Origin: Tamilnaduibacter salinus
GTDB taxonomy: Bacteria; Pseudomonadota; Gammaproteobacteria; Pseudomonadales; Oleiphilaceae
Direction: 5' to 3'
Length of the DNA stretch: 64,000 nt
Assembly (NCBI RefSeq): GCF_003096655.1
Contig: NZ_QEKQ01000009.1
Span: 70,937 to 134,936, forward strand
Notes under the pieces: generated by a model
Databases searched by the model: none
What the model was told of the DNA's origin: nothing
What the model saw: the letters and a program-made list of their open reading frames with translations, nothing else
Translations under genes and position numbers: made by a program
In this document: positions 28,266 through 50,530 of the stretch, piece after piece
Layout: every line of letters starts with the position of its first letter
Position numbering within the stretch: the first letter of the stretch is position 1

Positions 28266-28742
28266 AGTCGCCCTGGCGGTCACTCCGTTGTTTGATCGGG
28301 ACCGGCTGGTGGTCATTGCCGGAGGAGCGACAGGGATGTCGCGGTCGCATTTGGCGTCAGGGACGACCAGGTGCCCCGTTTGGTCCATTTACCAACCGTC
28401 TGAGCCTCAGAGAACCTTGAGAGCAAGGCGTGGGGGCGACGGTTTGGTGGTTCCAAACCGAGACCGCACAACGCAGTTATCGAGGTTCTCTGAGGCTCCC
28501 GTAGGGCTCAATGCTGAGAACTCTGGACTGTGTTGCCAGCCCTTGATGTGACCCCGCCACACCTGCGGACAGGCGCCTTGTCCAGAGCCCTCAGCATTGG
28601 GCAGGCGATTGGTAAATGGACCAAACGGGGCACTTATGCAGCGTAGGCAATGACCTCCAGCCGGTCCCAGACTCCAAAGTGGAGGGCTCAAATCGGTCGC
28701 CCTGCGGGCGACTCCGAAGTCGGAGACATCGGCTACATGTGA
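28266..28742 (-). repeat. REP-like repeat copy interrupted by a structured insertion
   Basis: Read on the minus strand, 28740 to 28634 and 28370 to about 28275 match the two halves of the uninterrupted repeat at 5196-5404. Shared parts include GTAGCCGATGTCTCCGACTT, the GTCGCCC hairpin, the GGGACCGGCTGG arm, then GTCGTCCCTGACGCC and its partner arm. The break falls in the loop between the two long arms, and the 263-bp element at 28371-28633 lies there. A GAACCGG-agg-CCGGTTC hairpin at 28741-28757 separates it from tolC. Confidence 0.85.
28371..28633 (-). mobile_element. 263-bp structured inverted-repeat element, copy B
   Basis: Terminal inverted repeats of 32 bases (28371-28402 and 28602-28633, 30 of 32 matching) enclose two further long perfect helices, 28402-28417 with 28483-28498 and 28509-28518 with 28590-28599. 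A GGTTTGG-tggtt-CCAAACC hairpin is at 28441-28459. On the minus strand it shares loop blocks with the element at 49901-50172, such as TTTGGAACCACCAAACC, CAAGGCGCC, GCAGGTGTGG and GGCAACACAG. No coding frame of protein character is present. It is non-autonomous if mobile. Confidence 0.75.
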
Positions 28743-28766
28743 ACCGGCCTCCGGTTCTCCGTCCGA

Positions 28767-30149: not shown

Positions 30150-32543
<2,394 letters not shown>

Positions 32544-47707: not shown

Positions 47708-49876
47708 CTATCCGGTTTCAATCGGATCCACATCGATCTGCCAGCGCAGCCCTGCTGGCTTGTCCGACTGATCGAGAGTCCCGCACAGTTGAGCGAGCGT
47801 GCGCTGCAGGCGCGAACGGCGCTCGTCGACCAACACCAGTTGGGCTCGGTGGCGGTCGGCGCGACGGGCAATAATGGCGGGAAGAGGGCCCCAGATGGCG
47901 AGGCCGTCGCGGGCGGCCATCTGGCGAGCGTGGTCGAGGAAGGCGAGGCTGTCGGCCATGTCCCGGCTCTCTGCCCGCAGGATGGCCATGGCTCGGAATG
48001 GGGGGAGTCCGAGTGCTTCCCGCTCTGACAGCAGGTGATCGACAATATCGGGGTAGTCCGCCTCGCAGAGCTGTTGCAGTAGAGGATGGTCGCTGTGACA
48101 GGTCTGGATCAGGACCCGTCCGGGAATGCGGTGGCGTCCCGCGCGGCCGCTGACCTGAAGGAGTGTCTGGATCAGTGTCTCCGGCGCCCGGAAGTCCACA
48201 CTGAACAGCCCGCCGTCGGCGTTCACGGCCACCACCAGTGAGACATTCGGAAAATCATGGCCTTTGGCCAGCATCTGTGTGCCGACCAGGATGCAGGGTG
48301 TGCCGTCGTTGACCGTTGCGAGAAGCTGGTCGATTCGTCCGCGACGCCGGGTGCTGTCCCGGTCGATGCGGATCACCGGTGTCTCGGGGAACTGCGCTTC
48401 CAGAATGTCTTCGGTGCGTTCCGTGCCCTGACCGACAGGCCGGAATGCCTCGCTGTCACATTCCGGGCAGGTGGTTGGCGCCGCCCGTTGGTAGTCGCAG
48501 TGGTGGCATCGCAACGCCCGGTCCCGGCGGTGGTATGTGAGGCGCGCATCGCAGTGGGGGCAGTCCATCATGTGGCCGCAGTCGAAGCACATCATGACCG
48601 GTGCGTAGCCGCGTCGATTGACGAAAACCAGCACCTGCTCGCCGCGCTCGATGCGCTCGCCAATGGCCTGGAGCGTGGGGCGGGCCAGCCCCCCTTCCAG
48701 AGGGCGGCTGCGAATGTCGAGCAGGGTCATCTTCGGCGGGCGTGCGTCGCCCACCCGTTCTTCCAGTCGCGCCAGCCGATACTTGCCTGTGCGAGCGTTG
48801 TGAAAGGACTCGGTGGAGGGCGTTGCCGATCCCAGGATCACGGGGCAGTCGTTCATCTGCCCCCGGACGACCGCCAGGTCCCGGCCGGAGTACCGGAAGC
48901 CCTCTCCTTGTTTGAAGGAGCTGTCATGCTCTTCGTCCACGACAATGGCGCCAATGTCCGCATAGGGGAGCGTGACGGCCGAGCGGGTGCCGATCACGAT
49001 GGCCGGGTCACCCCGTCGGATCGACAGCCAGGTACGCAATCGTTCCGTGTCGTTCAGCGCCGAGTGCCAGACCTGTATGCGCTCACCAAAGTAGCGACGG
49101 AAGCGGCGCACCGTCTGAGGAGTGAGATTGATCTCGGGAACCAGGATAAGGGCCTGTTGGTCGGCGCCCAGGTGCTCCTGCAAATAATGAAGGTAGAGTT
49201 CGGTTTTGCCGCTGCCAGTGATTCCGTAGAGCAGGGTTGTGGTGAAGGCACCGGGCGATGGTAAATGGCGGTAGGCCGCCTGTTGTGCCGGCGTTAGCTG
49301 GGGCAGAGAGTCCAGATATGCCTGATCGGGTGTGGGTGGTTTGGGCGTGGCGGTGTCGATTAGCCCGCGTTGATGCAGTCCGCGGATCTGGGCAAGGCTG
49401 AATCCCTCCGCCCGGATCGTGGATTCCCGGGTGATATCGGGTTGTTGCTTCAGCCAGCTCAGGAGCATTTTCTGTTTGCGAGCCTGGGGGGGCAATGTGT
49501 CCGGATCGGCATCGGGCCGGGCTCGCCAGCCGGTTTCCGTCGGCAGGGATGCTGGCTGGCCGCGACGAAGCGCGGGAGGCAGAGCCATGAACAGGCACTC
49601 GCCCAATGGGTGCTGATAGTAACGGGCCGCCCAGCTCATGAGTTCTCGGGTGTCGTCAGGGAGTGCCGCCCAGTCTTCCAGGGGTGGCCCCAATGGGCGC
49701 AATGACAGGCCTTCCGGGGGCGTCACGCCCGTTGCGATCACAAGACCGACGAGCTGCTGTCGGCCAAACCGGACGCGGACACGTTGGCCGGGCATCACGG
49801 TCTGGCCGTCTGGAATGCGATAATCAAAGGCCTGTCGCAGCGGGCGGGACAGTACGATGCGGGCTGTGTCGGTCAC
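47708..49876 (-). CDS. priA: primosomal protein N' (replication restart helicase)
   Basis: 3'-5' helicase that reloads the replisome at stalled forks. 722 residues from GTG 49876. N-terminal fork-binding domain (1-105), Walker A GITGSGKTELY near residue 217, VVDEEHDSSFKQ (DEEH box) near 312, then a zinc-binding insert with eight cysteines (CFDCGHMMDCPHC, then CHHCDY and CPECDSE) inside the helicase core, and VGTQMLAKGHDFPNVSLV in the second RecA lobe. All elements are intact. It is divergent from rpmE across the structured element at 49901. Confidence 0.96.
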   Translation of the reverse strand: MTDTARIVLSRPLRQAFDYRIPDGQTVMPGQRVRVRFGRQQLVGLVIATGVTPPEGLSLRPLGPPLEDWAALPDDTRELMSWAARYYQHPLGECLFMALPPALRRGQPASLPTETGWRARPDADPDTLPPQARKQKMLLSWLKQQPDITRESTIRAEGFSLAQIRGLHQRGLIDTATPKPPTPDQAYLDSLPQLTPAQQAAYRHLPSPGAFTTTLLYGITGSGKTELYLHYLQEHLGADQQALILVPEINLTPQTVRRFRRYFGERIQVWHSALNDTERLRTWLSIRRGDPAIVIGTRSAVTLPYADIGAIVVDEEHDSSFKQGEGFRYSGRDLAVVRGQMNDCPVILGSATPSTESFHNARTGKYRLARLEERVGDARPPKMTLLDIRSRPLEGGLARPTLQAIGERIERGEQVLVFVNRRGYAPVMMCFDCGHMMDCPHCDARLTYHRRDRALRCHHCDYQRAAPTTCPECDSEAFRPVGQGTERTEDILEAQFPETPVIRIDRDSTRRRGRIDQLLATVNDGTPCILVGTQMLAKGHDFPNVSLVVAVNADGGLFSVDFRAPETLIQTLLQVSGRAGRHRIPGRVLIQTCHSDHPLLQQLCEADYPDIVDHLLSEREALGLPPFRAMAILRAESRDMADSLAFLDHARQMAARDGLAIWGPLPAIIARRADRHRAQLVLVDERRSRLQRTLAQLCGTLDQSDKPAGLRWQIDVDPIETG

Positions 49877-49900: not shown

Positions 49901-50172
49901 ACTAGTGTCCCGTCGGGCTAATTCCTTAATCTACTGCTTGCCTCTGAGGGCTCTGACCAAGGCGCCAGTCTGCAGGTGTGGTGGTTCCACATCAAAGACT
50001 GGCAACACAGGCTCTGAGTCCTCAGAGGCAAGCCCTTCGGGAGCTTCTGAAAAACCGAATAGCGTCGTTGTGCTGTTTCGATTTGGAACCACCAAACCTT
50101 CACCAGCACGCCTAGCTCTTCGGTTTTTCAGAAGCTCAGTAGGTTAAGGAATTAGCCCGACGGGACACTAGT
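49901..50172 (+). mobile_element. 272-bp structured inverted-repeat element, copy C
   Basis: The ends 49901-49936 and 50137-50172 are inverted repeats matching at 35 of 36 positions; the part equivalent to copy B is 49905-50168 (264 bp). Inside are perfect helices 49937-49948 with 50021-50032 (12 bp) and 50041-50059 with 50119-50137 (19 bp), a GCCAGTCT/AGACTGGC helix, and a TTTGG-aacca-CCAAA hairpin. Loop sequences match copy B (28371-28633) while helix sequences differ. The outermost ACTAGT reads the same on both sides, so CTAG could be a target duplication. No protein-coding frame is credible. Confidence 0.75.
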
Positions 50173-50311
50173 ATTGCGCCAAGCTGGTTTTCTGATACCA
50201 TTCGGCGTCCAAATTGGCGGCCTGCATTCTGAACCGCCATGAGATTCGTTTCAAACAATGCGGTGCCCGGCATTGGATCGGGTGGCGGCATGGCCAAAGA
50301 GGTTCTCCATC

Positions 50312-50530
50312 ATGAAAAGCGGACTCCATCCCGAGTATTCGGACATTACCGCCACCTGCAGCTGCGGTAATGAAATCAAGACCCGTTCCACCATTGGCAA
50401 GGACATTCAACTGGATGTCTGCTCCCAGTGCCACCCCTTCTACACTGGCAAGCAGAAGGTGATGGACACAGCGGGCCGTATCGATCGCTTCCAGAAGCGG
50501 TTCGGTGGACGGATCAAAGGCGGCAAGTAA
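50312..50530 (+). CDS. rpmE: 50S ribosomal protein L31
   Basis: 72-residue zinc-binding L31: [20 protein letters not shown] then [14 protein letters not shown]. Cysteines C16, C18, C37 and C40 form the zinc site, so this is the C+ type that is replaced by a paralogue in zinc shortage. AGAGG lies upstream of ATG 50312. A strong terminator follows. Confidence 0.97.

Follow-up and report, generated by a model that had tools for sequence, protein, structure and literature searches.

Two covarying intergenic elements of Tamilnaduibacter salinus are very probably copies of an IS630-type MITE family

The window analyzed here, a stretch of 64,000 nucleotides of the Tamilnaduibacter salinus genome, contains two intergenic elements, C and B. 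Element C lies in the spacer between the divergent genes priA and rpmE, whereas element B is flanked by the 3' ends of two genes, waaA (lipid IVA Kdo transferase) and tolC. The relevant features, in window coordinates, are the following.

47708-49876, minus strand: priA (primosomal protein N'), start codon 25 bp from the CTAG flanking element C
49902-49905, no strand assigned: CTAG target at the left end of element C (flanking TA at 49903-49904)
49905-50168, plus strand: element C, very probably a full-length 264-bp non-autonomous IS630-type MITE, its ends matching IS630 elements
49905-49935, plus strand: 5' arm of the terminal stem, the first ~21 bp of which form, with CTAG, the IS630-matching inverted repeat
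49936-50033, plus strand: hairpin H1, with four significantly covarying column pairs, tolerating G.U but not A.C
50033-50041, plus strand: almost invariant linker CCCTTCGGG joining H1 and H2
50041-50137, plus strand: hairpin H2, of inverted H1 design, with an almost invariant apical TTTGGAACCACCAAACC and four significantly covarying column pairs
50138-50168, plus strand: 3' arm of the terminal stem
50168-50171, no strand assigned: CTAG target at the right end of element C (flanking TA at 50169-50170)
50312-50530, plus strand: rpmE (ribosomal protein L31), the divergent neighbor of element C
28371-28633, minus strand: element B, a divergent full-length copy that has lost CTAG at both ends
28276-28743, no strand assigned: 468-bp repeated unit containing B, with a second genomic copy (G000:C5) that is 90.8% identical

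Element C contains spurious short frames only and no gene. Directly 5' of rpmE, at 50257-50303 (+), there is a weak match to the L31-Gammaproteobacteria ribosomal leader (31 bits, gathering score 33.2); element C is positioned just upstream of it and leaves the leader intact. The 468-bp unit around B has inverted arms of its own (ACCGGCTGG...CCAGCCGGT) and may be a larger element taking B along. A TPP riboswitch (59.8 bits) was found at 30381-30497 (+), immediately 5' of thiC. The elements themselves had been suspected of being undescribed, and as far as Rfam is concerned they are: nothing credible over the element came up when the window was searched at the gathering score or when five loci bearing the element were searched with a relaxed threshold, and no family, HEARO included, covered it at the gathering score.

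As stated in the initial annotation, C and B align end to end (mean column identity 84%). Both are predicted to fold very stably, C with -179 kcal/mol (z -19 relative to shuffled sequence) and B with -169 kcal/mol (z -13.5). When pairs were counted on the family consensus structure, 7 of 20 differed between C and B in the outer terminal stem, all of them on both sides and all Watson-Crick, and 5 of 13 differed in the inner terminal stem, four being compensated. In H2 six of the seven differing pairs (out of 16) were compensated. In H1 11 of 23 pairs differed, but only six were compensated and three are broken in B. The compensated-helix counts given earlier were thus roughly right, except that compensation in H1 is imperfect. 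C and B are an unusually divergent pair within their family.

The family is large. A DNA search of the T. salinus genome detected about 20 full-length copies and many fragments, and the end pattern occurred there 61 times, whereas the reversed control pattern did not occur at all. Within the same bacterial family, 121 genomes were searched for the end and 55 carry it, in a patchy distribution, and the element was found in many Marinobacter species and in several genera of that family. Among named genomes the apical H2 motif was detected in 64 stretches; apart from two in a bin labelled Halomonadaceae, all carried the label Marinobacter. No copy was found in the plasmids, phages and viral contigs searched. 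With hardly an exception full copies are 269-271 bp long including CTAG, and consist of a terminal stem of ~31-33 bp enclosing H1 and H2. The sequence of H2 is that of H1 in reverse complement, AAGGCG...GGTnTGGTGGTTCCAnATC...GCAAC being found in both in opposite orientations, which makes the element almost strand-symmetric as DNA. In one copy (L002, G000:C3:346010-346106) the whole of H2 is inverted relative to H1. Shorter derivatives also exist: one-hairpin forms of 165-200 bp (L003, L116, L133, L249 and L322), 59-bp forms in which nothing but a 13-base loop separates the 23-bp ends (at seven loci that were checked, in three genomes) and, in a fourth genome, a form of 40 bp. The repeated occurrence of 59-bp forms devoid of both hairpins, at several loci, suggests that movement does not require the interior. 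Preservation of its length and fold in spite of this apparent dispensability is an unusual feature.

The terminal sequences identify the likely source of mobility. The outer ~24 bp of the MITE (CTAGTGTCCCGTCTGGTTAATTCG; end consensus CTAGTGTCCCGTCTGGTTAATTCGYTGA) match both ends of complete, ~1.2-kb IS630-family elements from the same bacterial family. The partner was first found through copies at contig edges of genome G114, where several contigs begin inside a longer element with the same end (CTAGTGTCCCGTCTGGGTAATTCGT) whose translation ends in an IS630-type transposase. Complete IS630 elements (L268, L269, L274, L271, L273 and L277) have the ends CTAGTGTYYCGTYYGGKTAATTCG, and a search of the bacterial family with PF13358 (DDE_3) yielded complete ~1.19-kb elements with the ends CTAGTGTTCCGTCCGGGTAATTC, CTAGTGTTCCGTTCGGTTAATTCGCTG, CTAGTGTCTCGTTTGGTTAATTCGCTC and similar. 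The IS630-family elements sharing these ends carry intact transposases, two of which matched NF033545, the NCBIfam IS630 model, with E ~1e-89. Transposases of the PF01609 (DDE_Tnp_1) and PF13751 (IS1182) types were also considered as partners and were rejected, as the ends of their elements do not fit. Most copies, C among them, have CTAG on both sides, but it is absent from B. IS630-type elements duplicate TA, and CTAG-preferring insertion is named in the title of a work cited in PMC2170065. Orthologous sites without the element were found in relatives by a joined-flank search, with 67-82% identity, too diverged for the target duplication to be read. The end match, the CTAG sites and the absence of genes from the copies together indicate that C and B are, on sequence grounds, almost certainly copies of an IS630/Tc1-mariner MITE family. 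In the T. salinus genome PF13358 gave no match and no IS630-type transposase was found, therefore the family is probably an immobile orphan there now.

Two further CTAG-flanked repeats of the T. salinus genome were encountered, their partners coming to light among the PF01609 and PF13751 transposases. One (CTAGGAGTCTGCGCGG..., at L071, L079 and L180) has the same ends as a 1587-bp IS1182-family element, the other (CCCGGATTTCTC..., at L090, L085, L186 and L195) as a ~1.56-kb IS1380-family element, and a MITE of the present family contains an insertion of one copy of the latter repeat. At L084, L088 and L091 hybrid ends (CTAGGAGTCTGGTTCATTCGCTGA) were seen, in which MITE sequence carries the extreme terminal bases of the IS1182-type end, as though the end of one element family had been captured by another.

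Conservation was assessed in 75 copies. Mean pairwise identity was 0.88 in the outer ~24 bp of the terminal stem, 0.74 in the H1 stem and 0.68 in the H2 stem, thus the outer stem is the best conserved of the main helices (0.68-0.79 elsewhere), as would be expected of an end read by a transposase. The contrary view, according to which the end sequence is not maintained and the elements are therefore not ordinary MITEs moved by a transposase, is not supported. It is these outer base pairs that match the IS630 terminal repeats. The unpaired blocks had been described as conserved. This applies to the H2 apical block TTTGGAACCACCAAACC and the CCC/GGG linker, which hardly vary (0.97-0.99). All unpaired columns taken together, however, changed about as frequently as the paired columns (3.25 versus 3.16 inferred changes per column).

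The covariation itself proved to be real. With 72 core pairs in the 75 copies, 97.7% of the cells were paired and 721 were double-change cells; when the partners were slid by 1-3 columns as a control, only 31-42% were paired and 27-82 were double-change cells. Significance was evaluated with a test of our own modelled on R-scape, which uses an APC-corrected G statistic and a simple null of alignments re-evolved on the tree. Among all column pairs, eight reached E<0.05 under this phylogeny-aware null and all eight are predicted base pairs, four in H1, four in H2 and none in the terminal stem. For the two internal hairpins the reported covariation is confirmed. The refuting outcome named in the initial annotation, ends matching a single transposase family together with helices lacking significant covariation, was obtained only by half: the ends do match one family, but the helices covary significantly.

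How the covariation arose can be approached through its pattern. The proportion of double changes among changed pairs was 0.07 in very similar copies and rose to ~0.7 with divergence. Single mismatches thus dominate among near copies and doubles increase later, suggesting that mismatches come first and are subsequently matched or purged. The rarity of doubles among the closest copies rules out one-step, simultaneous conversion of the arms as the only cause. The two B copies sharing the 468-bp unit show, inside the element, four double compensations, three pairing-neutral single changes and two broken pairs, whereas pairing in a stem beyond the element is for the most part broken. On single branches doubles cluster weakly in the terminal stem (p 0.04) but not in H1 or H2. 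Matched end changes are present even in L315, a 59-bp copy without interior. Selection for an RNA fold should favor G.U over A.C intermediates. This was seen only in H1, with 37 G.U and 11 A.C events on one strand, in 12 and 2 pairs, respectively; the corresponding event numbers were 17:21 in the terminal stem and 9:11 in H2, thus a strand-specific fold tolerating G.U but not A.C does not extend over the whole structure. Single-base C->T and G->A changes were nearly equal in number in H1 (45:40), which ruled out that the H1 excess simply reflects a C->T strand bias.

These observations bear on three rival accounts. According to one, the element is an ordinary MITE, the arms of which are homogenized by template switching only, with neither fold nor loops under selection. 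Template switching between the arms of inverted repeats, which homogenizes the arms and inverts spacers, is a published mechanism (PMC8604942, PMC8794818); the inverted H2 of L002 fits it (or recombination between the stem arms), and it is in line with the matched end changes of the interior-less L315 and with the terminal stem and H2, neither of which shows a strand preference. However, the H2 apex and the linker are 97-99% identical while the stems are 68-74% identical, which means that something constrains the sequence in a way that the MITE/template-switch model leaves unexplained; moreover, doubles cluster only weakly, and the G.U bias of H1 would not be predicted from DNA repair alone and is hinting at a single-stranded form. 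In this unmixed version the account is a tentative one, to which we would give about one chance in three.

The opposite account, that the fold is under selection because the element functions as a structured RNA, whether regulatory or mobile, for which the IS630-like ends are a mere vehicle, draws on the same H1 bias, on the covariation that was significant in H1 and H2, on the near-invariant loop and linker and on the constant length. Against it speak the absence of a G.U preference from the terminal stem and H2, the near strand symmetry created by the inverted H2, the lack of an Rfam match, and the positions of the copies. In 59 copies, placed with rough gene calls, there was no clear bias toward 5' or 3' gene ends (61 versus 50 sides), and the idea of a preference for gene starts, prompted by a few copies just 5' of start codons, found no support in this set. 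We regard this account as unlikely. Much less probable still is movement as folded single-stranded DNA, similar to IS200/IS605 elements or integron cassettes. Each strand does have strong cruciform-forming potential, but an IS200/IS605-type element should lack inverted ends and TA duplication and should have subterminal hairpins recognized by a Y1 transposase, whereas the present element has perfect inverted ends matching a DDE transposase family and a flanking TA within CTAG, and its 59-bp forms retain inverted ends only. The IS630 end match largely refutes this proposal of the initial annotation, for which no support was obtained.

The explanation that we favor, and consider highly likely, is an IS630 MITE mobilized in trans, whose arms are kept matched mainly by a process at the DNA level, with a weaker contribution of selection on H1 being possible. 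An IS630 transposase encoded elsewhere would recognize the terminal repeats in trans, cut the element out and paste it at TA within CTAG, as the end match and the published biochemistry of IS630 suggest, and the family would have spread in this way through Marinobacter and related genera. As the sequence drifts, the long complementary arms would stay matched, single mismatches appearing first and matched doubles later, presumably when one inverted-repeat arm is recopied from the other via template switching and when well-folded source copies seed new ones. Selection on the single-stranded fold of H1 may add to this to a lesser degree. Whether template switching is the main cause of the covariation is an even bet in our judgment, this apportionment being indirect. 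The hairpins are probably unnecessary for movement, since forms that have lost them still occur at multiple sites. It is conceivable, at rather long odds, that H1 (perhaps also H2) is a functional single-stranded structure, made as RNA from the plus strand, which the MITE keeps although transposition does not need it; it would then be a structured RNA, selfish or domesticated, carried through Marinobacter by IS630.

Similar combinations of features are known from other repeats. RUP, a pneumococcal repeat of 107 bp for which mobilization by IS630-Spn1 has been proposed, is likewise small, gene-free and multi-copy, with IS630-like ends, a TA target and a long paired stem (PMC2229807, PMC3049150); compared by description, the present element differs in its length (264 bp), in the two conserved hairpins inside the terminal stem, in covariation tested against phylogeny and in its host family. 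Correia/NEMIS and ERIC elements, some of which act in mRNA, are also palindromic and intergenic, carry TA at their ends and fold stably (PMC2229807), but form a single long hairpin, whereas the present element has a three-way fold and an IS630 partner identified in the same bacterial family. The CIR repeats of Caulobacter and Brucella share two hairpin arms, a linker and TA at the ends (PMC2229807); their ends are unpaired with each other, in contrast to the arms described here, which are mounted on a terminal stem matching a transposon end. The Marinobacter IS630 elements (L268, L274 and others) have the same ~24-bp inverted ends and CTAG target, but are ~1.19 kb long and encode a transposase of 360-363 amino acids, and no internal hairpins of the MITE were seen beside their ends. 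A limited literature search found no earlier description of the element family. We regard it as a new family of IS630-type MITEs in relatives of Marinobacter, unusual in its interior of two hairpins, the length of which is conserved.

Covariation is usually taken to prove that an RNA fold is functional, but the same signal can come from recopying between the inverted-repeat arms of a transposon at the DNA level. Its many copies, which differ widely in divergence, its identified parent, the derivatives without hairpins and the internal controls make this family a clean test case, in which the two causes can be told apart. Should the H1 signal prove robust, the family would be an example of a bacterial MITE carrying a structured RNA.
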